From Micropruina glycogenica (GTDB lineage Bacteria > Actinomycetota > Actinomycetes > Propionibacteriales > Propionibacteriaceae): a stretch of 64,000 bases of DNA. Location of the stretch: positions 2,232,001 through 2,296,000 of the forward strand of contig NZ_LT985188.1 of assembly GCF_900289045.1 (NCBI RefSeq), written 5' to 3'. Numbering within the stretch: the stretch's first letter is position 1; each line of letters starts with the position of its first letter. A program made the translations under genes and the position numbers. A model generated the notes under the pieces. It did not search any database, had not been told where the DNA came from, and was given only the letters and a program-made list of their open reading frames with translations. Positions 49,983-62,482 of this stretch are shown piece by piece.

Positions 49983-50002
49983 TCGAGACCTTTTGCGGCT
50001 AG

Positions 50003-51196
50003 GGAACCGCTGATCAACGTGCCATTCGTGGCGTGAGTGACGGTGATCGTGCTCTTGGAGGGGTTGGGTGTGGGCGTTGTCGGCTGATCGATTCGCTGCG
50101 GGGGGCCTGTTGGGGCGGTTTCGGGCAGGCTGACGCTATGCCGCCGCCGTGGTGAGAGCGACGGCACGTGCCCGCATCAGCCAGTTCGCCAACGCGAACG
50201 CGACGTGGAGACGATGGAGATTCTTCGCCAGGCCGCGGTAGCGGGTCTTGGTGAACCCGAAGTCTCGTTTGACGATCAGGAACGCGTGCTCGACCTTGGC
50301 CCGCACCCCGGCCTTGCGGGACTCGATCGCCCGCTCATGAGGATGCATCCTCGCCAACTGGCTCTTGCGGGCTGCAATGTGCCAGGTGACGCCGGCGAGG
50401 TGGGGATCGCCGGTGATCTCCTCGCGTTTGTCGACACCCAGGTAACCGGCATCGCCCCACCCGGCAGTGTCATCGGGCCGCATCAGATGGGCAGCCTCGG
50501 TGATATCGGACACGTTCGCTGCGGTGGCGGTGACCGAGTGCACATATCCGGTGCCGGCATCGGTGCCGATGTGGGCCTTCATCCCGAAGTACCACTGATT
50601 GCCCTTGCGGGTCTGGTGCATCTCGGGGTCCCTGGCACCGGTGGCGTTCTTGGTCGATGACGGTGCCGCAATGATCGTGGCGTCCACGATCGTGCCGCCC
50701 CGCATGATCCAACCCTCACGCTCAAACAGGTCGTTCTGCGCCGCCAGCAGTCTCTGGCCAAGCTGATGCTTCTCCAACAGGTGACGAAAGTGCAGCAGTG
50801 TGGTCGCGTCGGGCACCTGCTCCACCGTGAAGTCCACACCCAGGAACCGGCGCATCGCGAACGAGTCGTAGATCGCGTCCTCGACCCCCTCATCGGACAG
50901 GTTGAACCAGACCTGAAGCAAATACATGCGCAGCATCATCGCCAGCGGCTTCGCCTTCCGACCCGTCTTACCTGGCCGGTCCAGGTAGTAGTACGGCTCG
51001 ATCAGATCGATCCACACCTGCCACGGGATCGTGGCCTCCATCTGCTCCAAGAACTGCTCACGTTTGGAAACCCGCCGACGATTGCCGTACTCGACATCGG
51101 CGAAAGAAGGCTGCTCGCTGTCCATACCCCAACAATTTCGCGTCCCAACAGCCGAAGCCAGCCACCGAACCGCACACCACAAAGATCAGCGCATCC
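50003..51196 (-). mobile_element. IS5-family insertion sequence, copy 3 (1194 bp)
   Basis: Same element as copies 1-2 in reverse orientation. Bounded by CTAG at 49999-50002 and 51197-51200. Confidence 0.93.
50136..51125 (-). CDS. IS5-family DDE transposase (copy 3)
   Basis: 329 residues, intact. It has NATGARDPE, as in copies 4 and 5, but EAAHLM and the linked silent sites of copy 2. Confidence 0.95.
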   Translation of the reverse strand: MDSEQPSFADVEYGNRRRVSKREQFLEQMEATIPWQVWIDLIEPYYYLDRPGKTGRKAKPLAMMLRMYLLQVWFNLSDEGVEDAIYDSFAMRRFLGVDFTVEQVPDATTLLHFRHLLEKHQLGQRLLAAQNDLFEREGWIMRGGTIVDATIIAAPSSTKNATGARDPEMHQTRKGNQWYFGMKAHIGTDAGTGYVHSVTATAANVSDITEAAHLMRPDDTAGWGDAGYLGVDKREEITGDPHLAGVTWHIAARKSQLARMHPHERAIESRKAGVRAKVEHAFLIVKRDFGFTKTRYRGLAKNLHRLHVAFALANWLMRARAVALTTAAA

Positions 51197-51200
51197 CTAG

Positions 51201-52394
51201 GGAACCGCTGATCAACGTGCCATTCGTGGCGTGAGTGACGGTGATCGTGCTCTTGGAGGGGTTGGGTGTGGGCGTTGTCGGCTGATCGATTCGCTGCGGG
51301 GGGCCTGTTGGGGCGGTTTCGGGCAGGCTGACGCTATGCCGCCGCCGTGGTGAGAGCGACGGCACGTGCCCGCATCAGCCAGTTCGCCAACGCGAACGCG
51401 ACGTGGAGACGATGGAGATTCTTCGCCAGGCCGCGGTAGCGGGTCTTGGTGAACCCGAAGTCTCGTTTGACTATCAGGAACGCGTGCTCGACCTTGGCCC
51501 GCACCCCGGCCTTGCGGGACTCGATCGCCCGCTCATGAGGATGCATCCTCGCCAACTGGCTCTTGCGGGCTGCAATGTGCCAGGTGACGCCGGCGAGGTG
51601 GGGATCGCCGGTGATCTCCTCGCGTTTGTCGACACCCAGGTAACCGGCATCGCCCCACCCGGCAGTGTCATCGGGCCGCATCAGATGGACAGCCTCGGTG
51701 ATATCGGACACGTTCGCCGCGGTGGCGGTGACCGAGTGCACATATCCGGTGCCGGCATCGGTACCGATGTGGGCCTTCATCCCGAAGTACCACTGATTGC
51801 CCTTGCGGGTCTGGTGCATCTCGGGGTCCCTGGCACCGGTGGCGTTCTTGGTCGATGACGGTGCCGCAATGATCGTGGCGTCCACGATCGTGCCGCCCCG
51901 CATGATCCAACCCTCACGCTCAAACAGGTCGTTCTGCGCCGCCAGCAGTCTCTGGCCAAGCTGATGCTTCTCCAACAGGTGACGAAAGTGCAGCAGTGTG
52001 GTCGCGTCGGGCACCTGCTCCACCGTGAAGTCCACACCCAGGAACCGGCGCATCGCGAACGAGTCGTAGATCGCGTCCTCGACCCCCTCATCGGACAGGT
52101 TGAACCAGACCTGAAGCAAATACATGCGCAGCATCATCGCCAGCGGCTTCGCCTTCCGACCCGTCTTACCTGGCCGGTCCAGGTAGTAGTACGGCTCGAT
52201 CAGATCGATCCACACCTGCCACGGGATCGTGGCCTCCATCTGCTCCAAGAACTGCTCACGTTTGGAAACCCGCCGACGATTGCCGTACTCGACATCGGCG
52301 AAAGAAGGCTGCTCGCTGTCCATACCCCAACAATTTCGCGTCCCAACAGCCGAGGCCAGCCACCGAACCGCACACCACAAAGATCAGCGCATCC
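51201..52394 (-). mobile_element. IS5-family insertion sequence, copy 4 (1194 bp)
   Basis: Head-to-tail with copies 3 and 5, separated only by CTAG on each side (51197-51200 and 52395-52398). Confidence 0.93.
51334..52323 (-). CDS. IS5-family DDE transposase (copy 4)
   Basis: 329 residues, intact. It has NATGARDPE with EAVHLM and the silent sites of copy 1. Confidence 0.95.
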   Translation of the reverse strand: MDSEQPSFADVEYGNRRRVSKREQFLEQMEATIPWQVWIDLIEPYYYLDRPGKTGRKAKPLAMMLRMYLLQVWFNLSDEGVEDAIYDSFAMRRFLGVDFTVEQVPDATTLLHFRHLLEKHQLGQRLLAAQNDLFEREGWIMRGGTIVDATIIAAPSSTKNATGARDPEMHQTRKGNQWYFGMKAHIGTDAGTGYVHSVTATAANVSDITEAVHLMRPDDTAGWGDAGYLGVDKREEITGDPHLAGVTWHIAARKSQLARMHPHERAIESRKAGVRAKVEHAFLIVKRDFGFTKTRYRGLAKNLHRLHVAFALANWLMRARAVALTTAAA

Positions 52395-52398
52395 CTAG

Positions 52399-53591
52399 GG
52401 AACCGCTGATCAACGTGCCATTCGTGGCGTGAGTGACGGTGATCGTGCTCTTGGAGGGGTTGGGTGTGGGCGTTGTCGGCTGATCGATTCGCTGCGGGGG
52501 GCCTGTTGGGGCGGTTTCGGGCAGGCTGACGCTATGCCGCCGCCGTGGTGAGAGCGACGGCACGTGCCCGCATCAGCCAGTTCGCCAACGCGAACGCGAC
52601 GTGGAGACGATGGAGATTCTTCGCCAGGCCGCGGTAGCGGGTCTTGGTGAACCCGAAGTCTCGTTTGACTATCAGGAACGCGTGCTCGACCTTGGCCCGC
52701 ACCCCGGCCTTGCGGGACTCGATCGCCCGCTCATGAGGATGCATCCTCGCCAACTGGCTCTTGCGGGCTGCAATGTGCCAGGTGACGCCGGCGAGGTGGG
52801 GATCGCCGGTGATCTCCTCGCGTTTGTCGACACCCAGGTAACCGGCATCGCCCCACCCGGCAGTGTCATCGGGCCGCATCAGATGGACAGCCTCGGTGAT
52901 ATCGGACACGTTCGCCGCGGTGGCGGTGACCGAGTGCACATATCCGGTGCCGGCATCGGTACCGATGTGGGCCTTCATCCCGAAGTACCACTGATTGCCC
53001 TTGCGGGTCTGGTGCATCTCGGGGTCCCTGGCACCGGTGGCGTTCTTGGTCGATGACGGTGCCGCAATGATCGTGGCGTCCACGATCGTCCCGCCCCGCA
53101 TGATCCAACCCTCACGCTCAAACAGGTCGTTCTGCGCCGCCAGCAGTCTCTGGCCAAGCTGGCCTTCTCCAACAGGTGACGAAAGTGCAGCAGTGTGGTC
53201 GCGTCGGGCACCTGCTCCACCGTGAAGTCCACACCCAGGAACCGGCGCATCGCGAACGAGTCGTAGATCGCGTCCTCGACCCCCTCATCGGACAGGTTGA
53301 ACCAGACCTGAAGCAAATACATGCGCAGCATCATCGCCAGCGGCTTCGCCTTCCGACCCGTCTTACCTGGCCGGTCCAGGTAGTAGTACGGCTCGATCAG
53401 ATCGATCCACACCTGCCACGGGATCGTGGCCTCCATCTGCTCCAAGAACTGCTCACGTTTGGAAACCCGCCGACGATTGCCGTACTCGACATCGGCGAAA
53501 GAAGGCTGCTCGCTGTCCATACCCCAACAATTTCGCGTCCCAACAGCCGAGGCCAGCCACCGAACCGCACACCACAAAGATCAGCGCATCC
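52399..53591 (-). mobile_element. IS5-family insertion sequence, copy 5 (1193 bp, frameshifted)
   Basis: Third tandem copy, bounded by CTAG at 52395-52398 and 53592-53595; one base shorter than the others because of the lesion in its transposase. Confidence 0.92.
52532..53520 (-). pseudogene. IS5-family transposase broken by a frameshift (copy 5)
   Basis: Around 53159-53166 the sequence CTGATGCTTC of copies 3 and 4 is CTGGCCTTC here: one base lost plus substitutions. The reading frame shifts after LLEK, so the catalytic part (residues from GGTIVDATII) is in another frame. Otherwise nearly identical to copy 4. Confidence 0.92.
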
Positions 53592-53596
53592 CTAGG

Positions 53597-53619
53597 GGTT
53601 TCGACCAGCTCAACCAACG
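53597..53619. repeat. Interspersed repeat flanking the IS5 array
   Basis: GGTTTCGACCAGCTCAACCA is a diverged inverted copy of the unit that IS110 split at 48503/49983. Confidence 0.65.
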
Positions 53620-53661
53620 ACCGGCACGTTGAGCTGTGGAAGCTCGGGTCGCCTCAGCCGC

Positions 53662-54318
53662 TCAGCTTTTCGTCGTGCCCTTGGGCGGCTCGTCGTCGCT
53701 GTAGGCCGAGTGTGCGGACGGGGTGGTCACCACCGGAACAGCGTGCGGCCCGGCGAACGGAGCCGCGAGGCGCGGAGTCTTGGGGGCGGGCTGATCGTCC
53801 GCCGGTTGCGCGGCGCCCGGCTCGTCAGGCTTCTCGCCGCCCTGGGTTGGGGTCGTCGCGGGGGCATCGTCGCCGCTCTGATCGGACGTCGCCGTGGGAA
53901 CCCCGTAACGGCTCACCTGAGCAGTCGGCACGGGGGTGGGCGCGCTCTCGCCCGCCTGGGAATCGGCCGGCGGTTGTGCCGGTGTTTCCGGCTGCGCAGG
54001 CACCGCCGGTTGCGTGGGCGCCGGACGCGAGGGGAACCCCGCCGCCTGGCCGATGCCCCAGATGTAGGCCAGTGCGGCGACGAACGGCAGCAGGTGACCC
54101 AGCCAGCCGACCCACACGCCGAGGTCGGGGTTGGGTGCTGCCGAACCGGTCAGGTAGGCCGTCCAACCGAAGAGCACCAGCCAGTACAGAGCCAGAAGGG
54201 TGGTTCCGGCCCACAACAGCGGCCGTCCGCGCCCGATGCGGCGGCTCACGTAGACCGTGGCAGCAACGGTGGCCACCACGAACACCAGGGTTCGCAACAG
54301 CGACAACACGATTTCCAT
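53662..54318 (-). CDS. Membrane protein with long Pro/Ala/Thr-rich tail
   Basis: 218 residues. Three hydrophobic helices lie in residues 1-95 (LLRTLVFVVATVAATVYV, LLALYWLVLFGWTAYLTG, VGWLGHLLPFVAALAYIWGI). The remaining ~120 residues are low-complexity, proline and alanine rich (TQPAVPAQPETPAQPPADSQ) with repeated APxxP patterns, and probably disordered. Family unknown. It is divergent from the EF-G-like gene. Confidence 0.72.
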   Translation of the reverse strand: MEIVLSLLRTLVFVVATVAATVYVSRRIGRGRPLLWAGTTLLALYWLVLFGWTAYLTGSAAPNPDLGVWVGWLGHLLPFVAALAYIWGIGQAAGFPSRPAPTQPAVPAQPETPAQPPADSQAGESAPTPVPTAQVSRYGVPTATSDQSGDDAPATTPTQGGEKPDEPGAAQPADDQPAPKTPRLAAPFAGPHAVPVVTTPSAHSAYSDDEPPKGTTKS

Positions 54319-54451
54319 CAGGGCCTCCTGACCGATCGAGAGGGTCCTTCAGCCTAACCCGCACCTCATGCGCCGGTCCCCTTCCGCACGGGGGTGCCGG
54401 GGCTTTTTCGATTCGGTTGCAGCACCCTTCGGGCAGGTGTTAGGTAGGGGC

Positions 54452-56548
54452 ATGAGTTCGAAGGTGAACGCAGCCAGCATGCAGGTGACCAGCCCGGACG
54501 ACGTGCGCAACGTCGTGCTGATCGGCAACGCGGGGTCGGGCAAGACCTCGTTGTTCGAGCAGTTGTTGAAGGCGCGGGTCGAGGGTTACCGCGGCGAGAA
54601 AGAAGACGCCGAGCGCGCATCGCAGCTCTTTCTGGCCTCGTTCGTCACCGGCGACTCGGTGGTCAACCTGCTGGACGCCCCCGGGCACCCCGACTTCGTC
54701 GGCGAACTGCGCGCCGGCATTCGCGCCGCCGACGCCGCCATCTTCGTGGTCTCTGCCGCCGACGGCCTGGACGGCGCCGCCCAGGCCCTGTGGGACGAGT
54801 GCCGCAAGGCCAACCTGCCCCGGGTGATCGTGCTCACCAAACTCGACGCCGGCCACGCCGACTTCGACACCTCGGTCGCCGAACTGCAAGACGTCTTCGG
54901 CGAAGGCGTGCGGCCCACCCACGTGCCCACGTTCGCCGGCCCCGGCCAGGTGTCGGGCAACATCGGGCTGCTCAGCCTCGAAGAGCACGACTATTCGGGC
55001 GGTAGCCCGGTGAGCCGCACCCTGAACGCCCACGACGACCAGGTCGAGACCTACCGCGGCCCGTTGATCGAGTCGATCATTCAAGAGGCCGAGGACGACG
55101 GCCTCATGGATCGCTACCTCGAGGACGACGAACACCTCGACGTCGACGACCTTCTCGACGACCTGATGAAGGCCGTCGCCACCGCGAACCTGTTCCCGGT
55201 CGTGCCGGTGCAGACCGGTTCGGGGGTCGGCATCGAAGAGCTGCTGCGGCTGATCGAGCACGGCTTCCCCACCCCGGGCCTGCACCCCAATCCCCCGCTC
55301 ACCACCACCTCGGGCGAGGTGCTGCCGCAGCCACACAGCGAGCCCGGCGACCCGCTGGTGGCGCAGGTGATCCGCACCACCACCGACCCGTTCGCGGGCC
55401 GACTGTCGATGGTGCGCATCTTCTCGGGCACCCTGCGCACCGACGACGTGGTGCACGTGTCGGGCCACCGCTCGTGGGTGGCCGGCGCAGAGGACGACGC
55501 CCACCCCGACCACGACAACGACGAGCGCATCGGCCTGATCCAGGGCGCGGTGGGCACCGAACTCAAGCCGCGGCAGCAGGCCATCGCGGGTGAGATCGTG
55601 CTGCTGCCCAAGCTCGGCACCGCCGAAACCGGCGACACCTTGTCGGCCAAGGACCGTCCGGGCGTGGTCGAGGCCTGGGCGCTGCCCGACCCGCTGCTGC
55701 CGCTGGCCATCAGGGCCGCCACCCGCAACGACGAAGACAAGCTGGCCACCGCCCTGCAGCGGCTCGCGGTCGAAGACTCCAGCGTGCGGCTCGATCGCGG
55801 TCACGGCGACCAACTGGTGTTGTGGACCACGGGCCAGGCGCACGCCGACCTGGTGCTGGGCCGGCTGGTCGAGCGCTACCAGGTGCGGGTCGAGCAAGAA
55901 GAGCTCAAGATTCCGATGCGCGAGACCTTCACCGGCAAGGCCGACGCAATGGGACGCCACGTCAAGCAGTCCGGCGGCCACGGCCAGTACGCGGTGTGCA
56001 ACATCGAGGTCGAGCCGCTCGAGCGCGGCGCCGGTTTCGAGTTCGTCGACAAGGTGGTGGGCGGTGCCGTGCCACGGCAGTTCATTCCCTCGGTCGAGAA
56101 GGGCATTCGCAACCAGCTCGACAAGGGCGTGTTCGCCGGCTACCCGATGGTGGACGTCCGCGTCACCCTGTACGACGGCAAGGCGCACTCGGTCGACTCA
56201 TCAGACATGGCCTTTCAGCTGGCCGGCTCGCTGGCCATCAAAGAGGCCGCGGCGGCCAAGGGTGGCGTGGTGGCACTGCTCGAGCCCATCGACCTGGTCA
56301 CGGTCACGGTGGGTGAGGAATATCTGGGCTCGGTGATGACGGACCTCTCGGGCCGGCGCGGCCAGGTGCTGGGTTCGGACTCGGTGAACCGCAAGGCCAT
56401 CGTGCGGGCCCTGGTACCGCAGGCCGAGTTGTCGCGGTACGCCATCGATCTGCGCGGCATCGGGCACGGTTCGGGCACGTTCACCCGCGAGTTCCACGGC
56501 TACGAACTGCTGCCGCACAACCTGCTCGACAAGTACGCCCGCAAGTAG
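54452..56548 (+). CDS. Elongation factor G-like protein (FusA2-type paralogue)
   Basis: 698 residues with all EF-G domains: G domain (1-~270), domain II (~300-390), III-V (~400-698; GGHGQYAVCNIEVEPL is the domain IV entry, GHGSGTFTREFHGYE the end). The P-loop is GNAGSGKTS instead of AHVDAGKTT. G3 is DAPGHPDF and G4 is TKLD rather than NKxD, and the switch I sequence ending RGIT is missing (ERASQLFLASFV). It is therefore a divergent EF-G-like protein, common in actinobacteria, not the housekeeping fusA. GTPase rate and ribosome role may differ. Start chosen at MSSKVNAASM; upstream codons are low quality. Confidence 0.9.
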   Translation: MSSKVNAASMQVTSPDDVRNVVLIGNAGSGKTSLFEQLLKARVEGYRGEKEDAERASQLFLASFVTGDSVVNLLDAPGHPDFVGELRAGIRAADAAIFVVSAADGLDGAAQALWDECRKANLPRVIVLTKLDAGHADFDTSVAELQDVFGEGVRPTHVPTFAGPGQVSGNIGLLSLEEHDYSGGSPVSRTLNAHDDQVETYRGPLIESIIQEAEDDGLMDRYLEDDEHLDVDDLLDDLMKAVATANLFPVVPVQTGSGVGIEELLRLIEHGFPTPGLHPNPPLTTTSGEVLPQPHSEPGDPLVAQVIRTTTDPFAGRLSMVRIFSGTLRTDDVVHVSGHRSWVAGAEDDAHPDHDNDERIGLIQGAVGTELKPRQQAIAGEIVLLPKLGTAETGDTLSAKDRPGVVEAWALPDPLLPLAIRAATRNDEDKLATALQRLAVEDSSVRLDRGHGDQLVLWTTGQAHADLVLGRLVERYQVRVEQEELKIPMRETFTGKADAMGRHVKQSGGHGQYAVCNIEVEPLERGAGFEFVDKVVGGAVPRQFIPSVEKGIRNQLDKGVFAGYPMVDVRVTLYDGKAHSVDSSDMAFQLAGSLAIKEAAAAKGGVVALLEPIDLVTVTVGEEYLGSVMTDLSGRRGQVLGSDSVNRKAIVRALVPQAELSRYAIDLRGIGHGSGTFTREFHGYELLPHNLLDKYARK

Positions 56549-56554
56549 GTCCTC

Positions 56555-56692
56555 GTCATCCCGGCGCGCCCAGCCTCTCGTCATCCCGGCGAAGGCCGGG
56601 ATCTCCCAACCTGAGCGCGCGAGATTACGCAGCCCGTCGCGCCCGGCCACCCACGTCATCCCGGCGAACGCCGGGATCTCCCAACCCGGCCG
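56555..56692. repeat. Array of REP-like palindromes
   Basis: GTCATCCCGGCG begins at 56555 (partial), 56580 and 56655. The last two are complete hairpins ending GCCGGGATC and are each followed by CTCCCAACC and GCGCGAGATTRCG, so the unit is about 75 bases and the last one runs into the 75-bp palindrome at 56694. Confidence 0.88.
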
Positions 56693-56693
56693 C

Positions 56694-56768
56694 GCGAGAT
56701 TGCGTCCGATTCGCACCCCTCCTGAGGCGGCTGAGGCGTAACACCCCTCGAATCGGACGCAATCTCGC
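56694..56768. repeat. 75-bp palindrome, upstream copy bracketing the DUF559 gene
   Basis: Perfect 20-base arms, GCGAGATTGCGTCCGATTCG at 56694-56713 and its complement at 56749-56768, around a 35-base loop rich in TGAGGCGG. The copy at 57739 is identical in arms and length. Confidence 0.95.
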
Positions 56769-56855
56769 AGGAAGTTTCAGCTGACTTCCGCCGAAGCTGT
56801 GGATAACTCCCTCTCTGCACGGGGTCGAGCCATGGCCGTCTGATGGCATGGCCCG

Positions 56856-57770
56856 GTGGACGACATTGACGACCTGATGCGGTTGGCGACGGTGATGGGG
56901 TTGAACGGCGGCGTGTTGCGCGCGCGTGACCACCCCCAGTCGCGCGGCGCCTTCGCCGAGCTGGTGCGCTCGGGCGCGATCGTGCGGGTGCTGCCCGGAA
57001 CGTTCGTCGACGAGCGGCTGCGCGCCAGCCGGCTGACCCGATGCGCCGCCGCTCTGGCCACCTACCCGGGCGCACTGTTGTGGGGCACGGATGCCGTCGG
57101 GGCGCTGTGCGGCACCCTCGACGCCATCCCATTCGACGACAACGAGCCGGTGCAGCTGGTGCATCACCAATCCAGGCACTCCGCCCCGAGCATCCGCTGG
57201 ACGCGTCGCCGGGTGCAGTCCGAGCATCGGGTGCGGATCGGCGCGCTACGAGCACCGTCGGCGCGCTACCTGGCGGTGGAGGCCGCCGCCCGCGACTCCG
57301 GCGCACTGATCGAGCGGTTCCTGCGCGATGGCCGGATCAAGCCGTCCGAGTTGGCGGACGTGCTGCCCGCCCTGGCCGGCAGCGCGGGTCAGGCGCGACG
57401 ACGCAGGGTCGTGCGGGTGAGCGGCGACAACCCGTGGTCGGGCGGCGAACGCGAGCTGCTGGCCCTGCTCCGGCGGCATCGCATCACCGGCTGGGTGGCC
57501 AACGCCGAACTGGTCGTCGACCAGGTGCGCTGCTTTCCCGACGTGCTGTTCGAGCACGCTCGCCTGGTGGTCGAGTTCGACGGCTATGCCGTGCACGCCA
57601 AGCCCGAAGTGTTCGAGGCCGACCGTCGCCGGCAGAACCGGTTGGTGCTCGCGGGCTACCGAGTGCTGCGCTACACCTGGAAACAGCTCACCGAGACGCC
57701 CGAAGCGCTGATCGCCGAGCTTCGCGCCGCACTGGCGTGCGAGATTGCGTCCGATTCGCACCCCGGCTGA
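56856..57770 (+). CDS. DUF559 (Vsr-like nuclease fold) protein with AbiEi-like N-terminus
   Basis: 304 residues from a GTG. The N-terminal ~70 residues look like the winged-helix of AbiEi-type antitoxins (RGAFAELVRSGAIVRVLPGTFVDERLR). The C-terminal ~100 residues are DUF559, a very-short-patch-repair-like endonuclease fold: AELVVDQVRCFPDVLFEHARLVVEFDGYAVHAKPEVFEADRRRQNRLVLAGYRVLRYTWKQL, with the acidic residues of the fold in place (PDVLF, VEFDG). The last 11 codons and the stop lie inside the downstream palindrome. No partner toxin gene is adjacent. Bracketing by two identical palindromes suggests a mobile cassette. Confidence 0.82.
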   Translation: MDDIDDLMRLATVMGLNGGVLRARDHPQSRGAFAELVRSGAIVRVLPGTFVDERLRASRLTRCAAALATYPGALLWGTDAVGALCGTLDAIPFDDNEPVQLVHHQSRHSAPSIRWTRRRVQSEHRVRIGALRAPSARYLAVEAAARDSGALIERFLRDGRIKPSELADVLPALAGSAGQARRRRVVRVSGDNPWSGGERELLALLRRHRITGWVANAELVVDQVRCFPDVLFEHARLVVEFDGYAVHAKPEVFEADRRRQNRLVLAGYRVLRYTWKQLTETPEALIAELRAALACEIASDSHPG

Positions 57771-57813
57771 GGCGGCGGAGGCGTACCACCCCTCGAATCG
57801 GACGCAATCTCGC
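57739..57813. repeat. 75-bp palindrome, downstream copy bracketing the DUF559 gene
   Basis: Same 20-base arms at 57739-57758 and 57794-57813. The left arm encodes residues near the C-terminus (CEIASDS), and the stop TGA is in the loop. Confidence 0.95.
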
Positions 57814-57818
57814 AAGCG

Positions 57819-57849
57819 AAAGGCCCTCCCTCATCGAGGGAGGGCCTTT
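57819..57849. terminator. Intrinsic terminator hairpin
   Basis: AAAGGCCCTCCC / GGGAGGGCCTTT with a 7-base loop. On the minus strand it follows the YccF gene stop (57859) by 9 bases; the A/T ends make it usable in both directions. Confidence 0.85.
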
Positions 57850-57858
57850 CAGCGCGGA

Positions 57859-58269
57859 TCAGAAGGAGTAGACCGTCTGGCTGCCGTAGGGGACGTGATC
57901 GCTGTCGACGATCTCTTTGCCCAGCGGCACACAGGTGACCGGGATCATCTTGATGTTGGCGATGGCCAGCGGAATGCCGACGATCGTGATGGCCTGGGCG
58001 GCCGCCGTGGTCAGGTGGCCGATGGCCAGCCACAGACCGGCGACCAGAAACCAGATCACGTTGCCGAGGGCCGAGCCGACGCCCGCGGTCGGCTTGGCGA
58101 CGATGGTCTTGCCGAACGGCCACAGCGCGTACGCCGCCATGCGGAACGAGGCGATGCCGAACGGAATCGTGATGATCAGAATGCAGGCCAGCAAGCCGAA
58201 GAAGAAGTAGCCGATGGCCAGCCACAGGCCGCCGAAGACAAGCCAGATGATGTTGAGCAGAGTGCGCAT
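57859..58269 (-). CDS. YccF-domain inner membrane protein
   Basis: 136 residues from MRTLLNIIWLVFGGLWLAIG. Two YccF repeats are evident, NIIWLVFGGLWLAIGYFFFGL and NVIWFLVAGLWLAIGHLTTAA, each followed by TIPFGIA / GIPLAIA and a P-[FL]-GK motif (WPFGKTIV, VPLGKEIV). Function of the family is unknown. Confidence 0.9.
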   Translation of the reverse strand: MRTLLNIIWLVFGGLWLAIGYFFFGLLACILIITIPFGIASFRMAAYALWPFGKTIVAKPTAGVGSALGNVIWFLVAGLWLAIGHLTTAAAQAITIVGIPLAIANIKMIPVTCVPLGKEIVDSDHVPYGSQTVYSF

Positions 58270-58417
58270 GGTAAGAGTCAGATGCCTTTCGTCGGGCGCG
58301 ATGTGCGCCACCGTTCCAGTGTCGCGCAGCCCGAGCCGCGCAGAGCCTCGCTTCAGGGATATCCCAGGGCCGACCATCACTGCGGTCCGGGCCCTGGCAC
58401 GCCGCTAGCCTGGGCGC

Positions 58418-59146
58418 ATGGACGAACCCCGGCCGCGCGTGCAGCGCGAAGTGGTGTCGTTCGTCCGCCGCAGTGCGCGCATGAACCCTAGTCAGGCCAA
58501 GGCCTGGAGCGAGCGACAGCACTGGGTGGTGCCCGTTCCGCCCCGCGAGACCAGCACCTCGGTGGCACCGGACGCCCACGTCGACTGGGTGGCGGCGTTC
58601 GGCCGTGAGGCCCCGCTGGTGGTCGAGTTGGGCGGCGGCACCGGCGACGTGATCGCGGCCGTCGCGGCCCGGCACCCCGAACGCGACTTCATCGGCTTCG
58701 AGGTGTTCGAACCCGCGGTGGCCAGCACGCTCTCGAAGTGCGCCAGGGCCGGCGTCACCAACGTGCGCATGGTCGTGGCCGACGGCGTGGACGGCCTCGG
58801 CACTCTGATCGACGACGGCACCGTGACCGAACTGTGGACCTTCTTTCCCGACCCCTGGCACAAGAAGCGGCACCACAAGCGGCGTCTGGTCTCGACCGGG
58901 TTCGCCGACCTGGTGGCGGCCAAACTCGCCCCCCACGGCCGGTGGCGGCTGGCCACCGACTGGGCCGACTACGCCGAGGCGATGCGCGAAACCCTCGACG
59001 ATCACCCGCGGCTGGTCAACTGCCACGACGGCTGGGCGCCGCGGTGGCAGGATCGTCCGCGCACGAAGTATGAGCAGAAGGGCGGCGACGCGGGCCGCAC
59101 CATCTACGACCTGTGCTACCGGCTCGGGGAAGGGGGCTGCACGTGA
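58418..59146 (+). CDS. trmB: tRNA (guanine-N7-)-methyltransferase
   Basis: 242 residues. It makes m7G46 in tRNA variable loops. SAM motif VVELGGGTGDVIAAVAARHP, FIGFEVFEPAV, and the hallmark WTFFPDPWHKKRHHKRRLV. The C-terminal TKYEQKGGDAGRTIYDL is typical. The stop overlaps truA (GTGA). Confidence 0.96.
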   Translation: MDEPRPRVQREVVSFVRRSARMNPSQAKAWSERQHWVVPVPPRETSTSVAPDAHVDWVAAFGREAPLVVELGGGTGDVIAAVAARHPERDFIGFEVFEPAVASTLSKCARAGVTNVRMVVADGVDGLGTLIDDGTVTELWTFFPDPWHKKRHHKRRLVSTGFADLVAAKLAPHGRWRLATDWADYAEAMRETLDDHPRLVNCHDGWAPRWQDRPRTKYEQKGGDAGRTIYDLCYRLGEGGCT

Positions 59147-59958
59147 GACTGCGTCTCGACATCGCCTACGACGGCACCGAGTTTCACGGGTGGGCGTCGC
59201 AGCCCGGCCTGCGCACCATTCAGGAGGAGCTCGAGGCCTGGCTGCCCCGGTTGCTGCGGCTCACCGAGCCGGTCACGCTGACCTGCGCCGGCCGCACCGA
59301 CGCCGGCGTGCACGCCCGCGGCCAGGTGGCGCACGTCGACCTGCCCGAGGTGACGGACGTCGAGCGGGTGATCGCCGAACTGGGCTACAAGTTGCGCAAC
59401 GTGCTGCCGCCCGACGTGGTGGTGCGCCGGGTCAGCCTGGCCCCGCCCGGGTTCGACGCGCGTTTCTCGGCGATCTGGCGCCGCTACGTGTACCGCATCG
59501 CCGACTCGACGCCCGACCCGCTGTTGCGCATTCACACCCACGCCATGCGCACCGAGCTCGACCTGGCCCGCATCAACGCGGTGGCGCCCCGCCTGGTGGG
59601 CCTGCACGACTTCGCAGCGTTCTGCAAGGCCCGCGAGGGCGCCACCACGATTCGCAACCTGCAGCAGCTGTCGGCCCGGCGCACCTGGGGCGACGTGGCC
59701 GAGATCACGCTGATCTCGGACGCGTTCTGCCACTCGATGGTGCGCTCAATGGTGGGCGCCCTGGTCGACGTGGCCACCGGACGGCGCGACGCCGACTGGC
59801 TGGTCGGGCTGCTCGACGTCACCGAGCGCGCGGGCGAGGTCAAGGTGATGCCGCCCGGTGGGCTGACTCTCGAAGAGGTGGGCTACCCGCCCGATCGCGA
59901 CCTGGCCGCCCGGGCGAGCGAGGCGCGGGCCGTCCGTACGTTGCAGGAGGCCGAGTGA
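59143..59958 (+). CDS. truA: tRNA pseudouridine(38-40) synthase TruA
   Basis: 271 residues from the overlapping GTG. The catalytic Asp53 lies in TCAGRTDAGVHARGQVAH. N-terminal LDIAYDGTEFHGWASQPGLRTIQEEL, and FSAIWRRYVYRI, DFAAFCK and CHSMVRSMVGALVDV are conserved. Middle gene of three coupled RNA-modification-type genes. Confidence 0.97.
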   Translation: MRLRLDIAYDGTEFHGWASQPGLRTIQEELEAWLPRLLRLTEPVTLTCAGRTDAGVHARGQVAHVDLPEVTDVERVIAELGYKLRNVLPPDVVVRRVSLAPPGFDARFSAIWRRYVYRIADSTPDPLLRIHTHAMRTELDLARINAVAPRLVGLHDFAAFCKAREGATTIRNLQQLSARRTWGDVAEITLISDAFCHSMVRSMVGALVDVATGRRDADWLVGLLDVTERAGEVKVMPPGGLTLEEVGYPPDRDLAARASEARAVRTLQEAE

Positions 59959-60545
59959 GCCACTACTTCACCGACCCGAAGGCGGCCGAGGTCAGGCGCA
60001 GCGTCGAGGTGCGGTTCTGGGACACCGACTGGCGGTTCACCACCGCCAACGAGGTGTTCAGCGCCGACGGCCTCGACCTGGGCACCGCGGTGCTGCTGCG
60101 CTCCAGCGCTCCGCCGGCCGACGCCACCCGGCTGCTCGACCTGGGTTGCGGCTGGGGCGTGCTGGCGGTCGCGCTGGCCACTGCGTGCCCGTCGGCGGTC
60201 GTCGACGCCGTGGACGTGAACCCGCGGGCCCTGGCCCTCACCGCCGACAACGCCCGCGCGCACCGGGTGGGCGAACGGGTGCGTGCGCTCACCCCTGACG
60301 CGGTCGAACCGGACGTGCTCTACGACGAGATCTGGTCGAACCCGCCGATCCGCATCGGCAAACAGGCCTTGCATGAGCTGCTGCTGACCTGGTTACCCCG
60401 GCTGGCGCCGGGCGGCACGGCGCGGCTGGTGGTCGGCCGAAACCTGGGCGCGGACTCGCTGCAGCGGTGGCTGCACGAGCAGGGCTGGCACTGTGACCGG
60501 GTGGCAAGCGCCAAGGGCTTTCGCGTCTTCGCTGTGCGGCCCTGA
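59955..60545 (+). CDS. Class I SAM methyltransferase, RsmC-like
   Basis: 196 residues from a GTG overlapping truA. SAM motif LLDLGCGWGVLAVALA, VVDAVDVNPRALAL and the catalytic WSNPPIRIGKQALHELL (NPP motif of N2-guanine or N-methyltransferases). It has the single-domain length of the actinobacterial RsmC-like family. The target is probably rRNA; the position is not shown. Confidence 0.9.
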   Translation: MSHYFTDPKAAEVRRSVEVRFWDTDWRFTTANEVFSADGLDLGTAVLLRSSAPPADATRLLDLGCGWGVLAVALATACPSAVVDAVDVNPRALALTADNARAHRVGERVRALTPDAVEPDVLYDEIWSNPPIRIGKQALHELLLTWLPRLAPGGTARLVVGRNLGADSLQRWLHEQGWHCDRVASAKGFRVFAVRP

Positions 60546-60674
60546 CCAGGCAAGTCACTGCGGTGCAGCGGGTCTCTCGAACCTGGCCGGTCTCTACAAA
60601 CAGAGCCTCGTGAGCCCTAGTGTTGGCACCGACGGGCAGACGGTCTGACCCAGCACCAGTGGAAGGAGAACGGC

Positions 60675-61130
60675 GTGGCTGACACTGATGGCGGCGGCTT
60701 CCTCGATGACCTTGTCGCCAAGGCCAAGGAAGTGGGCGAGCAGGTCAAGGAATTCGCCGAGGATGCGTTCGACAACGTCAAAGAGTTCACCGGCGACGCG
60801 GTCGAGAAGGGCCAAGAGGTCTTCGAGGGCATCAAAGACAAGTTCGACGGGGACGATGCGGGCGATGCCGTGCAAGACGCCGGTGACGCGGTGAAAGATG
60901 CCGCCGGTGACGCCGGCGACGCCGTGAAGGACGCGGCCGGTGACGTGGCCGACGCTGCGGGTGACGCGGTCGACGAAGCCAAAGACGCGGCGGCCGATGC
61001 TGGCGACGCGGTCAAGGACGCGGCAAGCGATGCGGCCAATGCCGCGGGCGACGCTGCCGACGACGCCAAAGACGCTGCCGCCGACGTGGCTGAGGACGTC
61101 GACAAGGGCGTCGACGAGGCGCAGAACTGA
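60675..61130 (+). CDS. Acidic LEA-like repeat protein
   Basis: 151 residues, start GTG after GGAAGGAG. The C-terminal ~90 residues are near-perfect repeats of the type GDAVKDAAGDAGDAVKDAAG, with Ala, Asp, Gly and Lys making most of the chain. The N-terminus (KAKEVGEQVKEFAEDAFDNVKEF) is an amphipathic helix. The 11-residue-like periodicity resembles group 3 LEA desiccation proteins, and apolipoprotein-like helices are an alternative. No signal peptide. A strong terminator follows. Confidence 0.85.
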   Translation: MADTDGGGFLDDLVAKAKEVGEQVKEFAEDAFDNVKEFTGDAVEKGQEVFEGIKDKFDGDDAGDAVQDAGDAVKDAAGDAGDAVKDAAGDVADAAGDAVDEAKDAAADAGDAVKDAASDAANAAGDAADDAKDAAADVAEDVDKGVDEAQN

Positions 61131-61144
61131 CCCACGGAATCGAT

Positions 61145-61172
61145 GAGGGGCCGTCCGGCTGGACGGCCCCTC
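61145..61172 (+). terminator. Intrinsic terminator after the LEA-like gene
   Basis: GAGGGGCCGTCC / GGACGGCCCCTC with a GGCT loop, then GTTCGT. It lies 15 bases past the stop. Confidence 0.85.
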
Positions 61173-61199
61173 GTTCGTCGTCCGGCGGGTCGGTTAGGC

Positions 61200-61312
61200 T
61201 GGCGGGCACTGAACCTGCGCAGGGGAACCCGGTGAGATTCCGGGACTGACCCGCAGCCGTGAACGCCAGCGATGGCGCAGTCGGAATGCCTGGCCGGTTC
61301 GGCTCTGCAACA
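61200..61312 (+). promoter_or_regulatory. Cobalamin riboswitch 1
   Basis: The conserved blocks are in order: GCAGGGGAACCCGGTGAGAT, CCGGGACTGACCCGCAGCCG, then AGTCGGAATGCCTGGCC. This is the B12-box riboswitch scaffold (GGGAAxxxGGTGxxAxTCC ... CTGxCCCGCxxCCGT ... GTCxGGAxxCC). A TAGGCT -10-like box lies at 61195-61200. Downstream, GCGGGC (61326) can pair with GCCCGC (61353), a hairpin just before the start at 61379 that could control ribosome access. Confidence 0.93.
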
Positions 61313-61378
61313 CCCGCCGAGGTTTGCGGGCAGAGCCCGAGCGATGGGTTCGGCCCGCATCAGCTGATAGGACCGCTC

Positions 61379-62482
61379 ATGTCACACCTGCGCCGCATCG
61401 CCGTGCTGCTGCTCATCAGTCTCACCGCCGCTTACGGGTTGGCGGTCGCACCAGCCCGAGCAGCCGGTGCCGAAGCGATCAAGGCAGCCGACTACATCGT
61501 GTCAACGTTCGAGGCCACCGGCGACAAGCGGTTCGGCGACGTCGGCTCGGCTGCCGACTCGGTGCTGGCGCTGGCCGCAACGGGTGACGCCAAGTACGCC
61601 GACGACATCGCGGCGATCACCACGTTTCTGCAGTCGTCGGCCCCCGCCTACGTGAAGCCCGACAGCGCCGGCGCCTCGGGTGCGGCCAAACTGGCCATCG
61701 TCGCCGCAGCGGTGAAGGCCGAACCGACGAGCTTCGGCGGGGTCGACCTGCTGGCCACGGTGACGGACGGGGTCGGCGCCGACGGCGCGTTCGGCGCCTT
61801 CCCCGGCCCGTTCAGTTCAGGGCTCGCCATGGTGGCGCTGGCCCGCAACGGCCGAGCGGTGCCCGACAGCATGGTCGACTACCTGTTGCGCTACGCCGAA
61901 CCCCGCAGCGGCACCACCGGCGGCGGCTTCGGCTGCGCCACCTACCCGTTCAAGGCCGACGGCGACTGCCCCGCCGCCGACCCCGACAGCACCGCGATGG
62001 CGGTGCTGGGCCTGCGGGCATCGGGGTCGGCGAAGGCCACCCAGGCGGTCACCGACGCCCTGGCCTGGCTGCAGGGCACCCAGCAGGCGGACGGCTCGTG
62101 GCAGAACTACTCGCCGGTGAACTCCACGGGTCTGGTCGGCCCGCTGTTCCCCGCCGGGTCCGAGCAGGCCACCAAGGCCACTGCCTACGTGGTGTCGCAG
62201 CAGTTGGCGTCGGGCGCACTGACCACCGGCACCGACACCAAGGCCAACCTGATCGCCACCCAGCAGGGCATCTTCGCCCTCACCGGCACCACCTACGCCA
62301 CCATCGGCGGGGCGCAGCCGAGCGCTTCGGCCACGCCGTCGGCCGTGGCCTCGACGAGCCCGACCGCTGCACCGGTGCCGGCCACCCCGTCGGCACCGAA
62401 CCCGGTGATCGGCTGGACGACTGCAGGGCTGCTGGTGCTGATGCTGGCCTTCTTCGTGCTCGCCCGCCGTCGGGCTTCGTGA
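61379..62482 (+). CDS. Secreted alpha/alpha-barrel (prenyltransferase-repeat / transcobalamin-like) protein with C-terminal membrane anchor
   Basis: 367 residues. Signal peptide MSHLRRIAVLLLISLTAAYG with AxA cleavage near APARAAG. The mature part has helical-pair repeats of the squalene-cyclase/prenyltransferase type (STAMAVLGLRASGSAKATQAVTDALAWLQGTQQADGSWQN; the DPDST and QQADGSW motifs). A Ser/Thr/Ala/Pro linker (about 310-340) precedes one TM helix (TTAGLLVLMLAFFVLA) and RRR. Eukaryotic intrinsic factor and transcobalamin use this same alpha-barrel to bind B12, and the gene is controlled by a B12 riboswitch. A cell-surface cobalamin- or cobinamide-binding role is inferred. Confidence 0.82.
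   Translation: MSHLRRIAVLLLISLTAAYGLAVAPARAAGAEAIKAADYIVSTFEATGDKRFGDVGSAADSVLALAATGDAKYADDIAAITTFLQSSAPAYVKPDSAGASGAAKLAIVAAAVKAEPTSFGGVDLLATVTDGVGADGAFGAFPGPFSSGLAMVALARNGRAVPDSMVDYLLRYAEPRSGTTGGGFGCATYPFKADGDCPAADPDSTAMAVLGLRASGSAKATQAVTDALAWLQGTQQADGSWQNYSPVNSTGLVGPLFPAGSEQATKATAYVVSQQLASGALTTGTDTKANLIATQQGIFALTGTTYATIGGAQPSASATPSAVASTSPTAAPVPATPSAPNPVIGWTTAGLLVLMLAFFVLARRRAS

Follow-up and report, generated by a model that had tools for sequence, protein, structure and literature searches.

In REP/RAYT systems (TnpA-REP, REPtrons, REPINs) an enzyme gene is flanked by palindromes, and non-autonomous copies of a palindrome family specific to that enzyme are dispersed over the chromosome, partly as close inverted pairs. 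To our knowledge, RAYT is so far the only enzyme class dedicated to palindromic repeats; likewise, we know of no function assigned to DUF559 genes, which are common in Actinobacteria. Some REP families are stated to have no dedicated transposase (PMC3733652), and the CGTC-tagged REPs (Di Nocera 2013, PMC3733652) are dispersed, short palindromes for which no transposase is known.

The window, that is, the whole stretch of 64,000 nucleotides from Micropruina glycogenica analysed here, contains a DUF559 gene bracketed by two palindromes. As in REP/RAYT systems, an enzyme gene lies between palindromes, and dispersed chromosomal copies of an enzyme-specific palindrome family occur, partly as close inverted pairs and, in genome G191, mostly between genes. 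The locus differs in its enzyme, which, judged by its sequence profile, is a nuclease of Vsr/EDxHD fold with a putative AbiEi-type winged helix and not an HUH tyrosine transposase (RAYT), and in its palindromes, which measure 60-100 bp and have long loops. Membership of the REPtrons fails because an HUH tyrosine domain is lacking and because a GTAG or CGTC tag at the palindrome end is absent from the own-genome and G191 families. The CGTC-tagged REPs have a different sequence, and no DUF559 gene was found bracketed by them.

IS200/IS605 elements likewise consist of one gene and two terminal hairpins that overlap the gene end or lie close to it; unlike them, the present cassette has no Y1/HUH transposase (TnpA), and each gene copy has arms of its own instead of arms common to an IS family. 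EDxHD homing endonucleases (I-Bth0305I, 3r3p) resemble it in nuclease fold by profile (E 1.9e-4), in conserved acidic and histidine residues and in selfish persistence, whereas here there is no intron or intein, the palindrome has many dispersed copies, and the gene does not appear to split its target, complete palindromes being found on both sides. The AbiEi component of AbiE toxin-antitoxin systems has its counterpart in the AbiEi-like N-terminal winged helix predicted in many members, but a C-terminal nuclease replaces the AbiEi C-terminal domain and no AbiEii toxin gene adjoins. For DDE insertion sequences and MITEs, whose marks are a DDE transposase, terminal inverted repeats and a target-site duplication, a Pfam search of the cassette gene returned no DDE domain.

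We consider it likely that nuclease cassettes bracketed by palindromes form a family widespread in Actinobacteria, that the window contains one of its members, and that the family resembles REP/RAYT while using an unrelated nuclease. A cassette consists of a palindrome, an AbiEi/DUF559 gene and a second palindrome, with arms private to the cassette and a loop of 20-55 bases. Further copies of this palindrome, solitary or at times paired, are spread over the genome of that cassette and hardly occur elsewhere, and sister species differ at orthologous sites in whether a cassette or a solitary copy is there. These features point to self-spreading DNA of an undescribed kind, relying on an enzyme to which, as far as we know, no such job has been ascribed. 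No link between DUF559 and palindromes was found in the open-access papers searched; subscription papers and preprints lay outside this search, so that priority is unproven. The reading gives many DUF559 genes one testable job. If it is true, a second, unrelated enzyme class means that palindrome-spreading systems arose at least twice, and the cassettes offer a natural series of protein-palindrome pairs for working out a recognition code.

The cassette and its encoded protein

The pair of 75-bp hairpins around the DUF559 gene was recovered exactly as described in the original prediction, in coordinates, arms, loops and the 87-bp spacing (Table 1). The arm GCGAGATTGCGTCCGATTCG and its complement occur without mismatch at 56694-56713/56749-56768 and 57739-57758/57794-57813, and the window contains four arm matches with at most 3 mismatches, compared with 0.04 expected from shuffles. 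As folded single-stranded DNA, the two hairpins reach z-scores of -5.9 and -7.0, and the upstream palindrome matches the covariance model at 2.5e-19. It had also been claimed that the downstream palindrome supplies the last codons and stop of the gene, and indeed the final codons and the TGA (57768-57770) fall inside it.

Table 1 Features of the cassette and its immediate neighbourhood (positions in the window).
Feature	Position	Strand	Remarks
Left neighbour fusA2 (EF-G-like gene)	54368..56548	+	host flank, insertion site
Two CGTC-type REP units (CGTCATCCCGGCGAANGCCGGGATCTCCCAAC)	56577..56690		adjoin upstream palindrome
Upstream palindrome	56694..56768		perfect 20-bp arms, 35-base loop; 87 bp 5' of gene
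DUF559 gene, 304 aa	56856..57770	+	predicted N-terminal AbiEi-like part and C-terminal Vsr/EDxHD-fold nuclease
Downstream palindrome	57739..57813		arms identical to upstream copy, same orientation, loop nearly identical
Intrinsic terminator hairpin	57815..57850		separates cassette from yccF
Right neighbour yccF	57862..58269	-	host flank, insertion site

The terminator hairpin appears to lie on the host side of the cassette junction, because the sequence AGCGAAgG is common to it and the empty site of the sister genome G005. The CGTC-type REP units are probably repeats independent of the cassette. A known RNA family was rejected as the identity of the palindrome, as a search of positions 50000-62000 against Rfam returned nothing except a cobalamin riboswitch. 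This riboswitch (61180-61311, plus strand, 41.3 bits) is located 5' of an open frame (61259-62482) that encodes a secreted protein, and overlaps the listed start of that frame.

Pfam DUF559 covers residues 197-293 of the window protein (E=7.9e-9), with E198, D229, E240, D242, H247 and D256 as active-site residues. Among 85 homologues, E198, D229, E240 and D242 are kept in 99-100% and H247 in 82%, while D256, R257 and R259 are likewise invariant or nearly so, a pattern that we take to be the one expected of a Vsr/EDxHD-type nuclease. Profile matches in the PDB were 3hrl (7e-8) and 3r3p, the latter being the mobile-intron nuclease I-Bth0305I of the EDxHD family. The fold assignment rests on such profiles because a single-sequence AlphaFold model reached a pLDDT of only 32. 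In the cassette proteins Pfam recognised DUF559/MTES_1575 only and no Y1/HUH domain. Of the winged helix proposed for the N-terminus, traces were found in part of the family, with AbiEi_4 in 5/40 members and PADLOC AbiEi profiles matching up to 21/40, which is suggestive for the family, while the window protein itself gave neither match. It also matched none of the PADLOC defence models, and no AbiEii toxin gene was found beside the gene, the neighbours being the EF-G-like gene and yccF.

Solitary palindromes and site occupancy

Searching the 3.84-Mb chromosome with the arm pattern gave 24 matches, and a covariance model trained on 19 copies located 32 sites at E<1e-3, including the two in the cassette. 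The anticipated solitary palindromes thus exist, with about 30 copies elsewhere in the home chromosome (a lower bound, as are all genome-wide copy counts given here, which derive from searches), and the arms are not unique to the window locus. The own-genome copies split into two arm subfamilies, GATTACGTCCGATT and GAAATGACGACCGATT. Arm pairing is perfect in the cassette copies (40/40 pairs) and partly decayed in the solitary ones (241/300); the corresponding values in the G191 family are 38/38 and 373/418. Mismatches in solitary copies showed no G-U bias (GT versus AC 18:16 and 6:7) and therefore no sign of selection as RNA. In part, solitary copies could be scars of lost cassettes. As 12/27 own-genome copies overlap open frames predicted by a crude gene caller, their intergenic placement is less certain in this genome.

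The genome has three DUF559-palindrome families in total. The two further DUF559 genes (L074, G000:C1:2757183-2758025; L079, G000:C1:1438421-1439239) each have their own palindrome family (TGACGAAAGSTGCGCGCCAGT and GTTCTGAAAAGTTGCAGGCGACCG, respectively) with at least 5-6 solitary copies each. Carriage on phages or plasmids was considered and rejected, as the searches returned no phage match and, among plasmid records, two weak partial matches; an uncultured Micropruina record also holds palindromes of the same pattern.

In G191 the palindrome copies are mainly intergenic and some form close inverted pairs 70-120 bp apart (L220-L234). On one side only, 14 bases beyond the arm, they have a conserved tag, GGGnACnncnAAAA, which, by analogy with the GTAG tag of REPs, suggests a defined element end. 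When seven solitary sites of G191 were compared with 25 congeners, several orthologous gaps lacked the palindrome or palindrome pair. The relative orientation of the bracketing palindromes varies, being direct in the window and inverted in G191 and in Tsukamurella.

An orthologue of the window gene is present in four other Micropruina genomes (62-71% identity) and is bracketed by two palindromes in 4/4. The arms differ among these species (GTGAGATTACGTCAGATTC; GCGAGATTACGTC; ATCAGCGACCGATTC; GCGAAACTGCACC), and within a pair they match closely in 3/4, the G003 pair being alike only in its outer part. G002 (80% complete) has neither a close orthologue nor a palindrome of the window type. The window type of cassette occupies the fusA2-yccF gap in the own genome, adjoins yccF in G004, where the contig ends at the cassette, adjoins another gene in G003 and G005, and lies elsewhere in G001. 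The fusA2-yccF gap itself is empty in G005, with about 64 bp between stop codons and no palindrome left; in G003 it is filled by another DUF559 cassette, which lies on the opposite strand and has matched palindromes of its own, and in G001 it is occupied by repeats similar to GGGGACGGTTCYCCAACC. The cassette moves or has moved, since its presence at orthologous sites differs between sisters. Presence and absence are clear, while exact junctions and target-site duplications are unreadable because the intergenic DNA is too divergent between species. G005 and G003 share another orthologous DUF559 site (L089, L090), where the palindromes at the gene end are strong, wholly different and richer in AT, and where the upstream side has none.

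Distribution across Actinobacteria

At 85 homologous loci, 25% of the windows upstream of the gene and 46% of those downstream contained a hairpin (score of at least 12, loop of 20-60 bases); the 644 control windows taken at these loci gave 1.1% (p 5e-11 for upstream and 1e-19 for downstream). A clear hairpin is lacking in about half of the homologues, particularly on the upstream side. The downstream palindrome best matched its own upstream region, out of 85, in 23/42 testable cases, where 0.5 were expected. Palindrome copies hence cluster at DUF559 genes, as had been proposed. A comparison of 31 palindromes (30 families) with 16 genomes gave at least 83 solitary copies at home and, in the other 15 genomes, three among the matches listed, all in congeners. 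Four DUF559-palindrome families are present in G250 alone. Matched pairs were also found in several families of other Actinomycetes orders, with long near-perfect arms at L270, L280, L293 and L295. In Tsukamurella tyrosinosolvens NCTC13231 (WP_068740572.1) the gene is bracketed by TGCGGTGGAT-21-ATCCACCGCA palindromes, located 103 bp before the gene start and 23 bp after the gene end, and similar copies occur in its other replicons.

The association was also evident in the reverse direction. A blind hairpin search of 864 kb yielded only three matched pairs 0.5-1.8 kb apart, and all three bracket DUF559 genes, one of which the protein search had missed. Loop words of the CTGAG/CTCAG type were enriched (GCTCAGC 7 versus 0.9 and TGAGGCG 9 versus 0.8 expected); a universal loop motif is only suggestive, as shuffled sets yield best words with counts at least as high as the top ones here.

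All in silico tests proposed for a REP-RAYT analogue built on a different nuclease came out in its favour, and neither of the outcomes named beforehand as speaking against it, a lack of association across genomes or a lack of empty sites, was found: hairpins and own-pair matches link palindromes to DUF559 genes, the fusA2-yccF gap of G005 is empty, and G191 copies are absent from congener gaps.

Proposed mechanism and alternative explanations

We infer that the DUF559 protein itself may cut and spread the palindrome. The winged-helix part would read the private palindrome arms, and the Vsr-fold domain would nick or cut the DNA at the hairpin or next to it. A lone palindrome would then be a non-autonomous element and the palindrome-gene-palindrome arrangement an autonomous unit, with elements copied or moved to new sites, mostly intergenic or at gene ends; candidate modes of movement are cut-and-paste, single-strand transfer and break-repair copying. 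Beyond this locus, we lean towards the view that the actinobacterial DUF559/AbiEi proteins are an unrecognised class of palindrome-specific Vsr-fold transposition enzymes, each with its own hairpin specificity and seeding its genome with solitary hairpins, which would be an independent invention of the REP/RAYT lifestyle.

A homing-type selfish gene could account for some of these observations. The nuclease would cut solitary palindromes, break repair would copy the gene between two palindromes, recombination of direct copies would delete it and leave a solitary palindrome, much like a solo LTR, and spread of the palindrome would be secondary or due to another process. The profile match to the mobile-intron nuclease 3r3p fits such a gene, as do the nearly identical, direct palindromes of the window, which are expected if gene insertion duplicated one site. 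A homing gene, however, normally splits its own target, and here the palindromes are intact on both sides of the gene, and the vacant fusA2-yccF gap of G005 retains no palindrome. Moreover, copies exceed genes about 30:1 in the own genome and about 22:1 in G191, and some are close inverted pairs, so that a process moving the palindrome itself is needed; we therefore regard homing as unlikely. More improbable still is a non-mobile role, in which the DUF559 protein would serve as a regulator of AbiEi type or as a defence nuclease, and the palindromes would act as its operators, as self-markers or as RNA hairpins controlling the gene. The resemblance of the N-terminal part to AbiEi antitoxins and the operator position of the upstream palindrome would agree with this role, but a further copy is found where the gene ends, with tens more at unrelated genes, the presence of the palindrome differs between sister species, no AbiEii partner adjoins the gene, the window protein has no PADLOC defence-model match, and the mismatches of solitary copies have no G-U bias.

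Spreading of the palindromes by a RAYT or an IS transposase, with the DUF559 gene as cargo, seems very improbable to us. The genome does encode one RAYT-like Y1 transposase, its only one (L010 2463-3284, at about 1635 kb, Y1_Tnp at 1635058), with tandem GGGGACGGTTCYCCAACC repeats flanking it, and the window has an IS5-like transposase gene. The repeats that flank the RAYT (GGGGACGGTTC) are not the window palindrome, and attribution of the palindrome to the RAYT/REP system of this genome was rejected, the RAYT being located elsewhere with other flanking repeats. Furthermore, dozens of palindrome families are each paired with their own DUF559 gene, the reverse search led to DUF559 genes in 3/3 cases, and an invariant nuclease active site together with sequence-matched ends is unexpected of cargo. 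Spread by the DUF559 nuclease itself thus remains the reading we prefer.

Two features of the surroundings were observed in addition. The IS5-like DDE transposase (52532-53577, minus strand) is encoded in two overlapping reading frames, like frameshifting insertion sequences. CGTC-type REP units (CCGGCGAACGCCGGGATCTC) are found within about 30 nt of 7/29 own-genome palindrome copies, at 56577-56690 in the window and also at L016, L018, L021, L092 and L095; the two kinds of repeat may insert at common hotspots or make up composite repeats.
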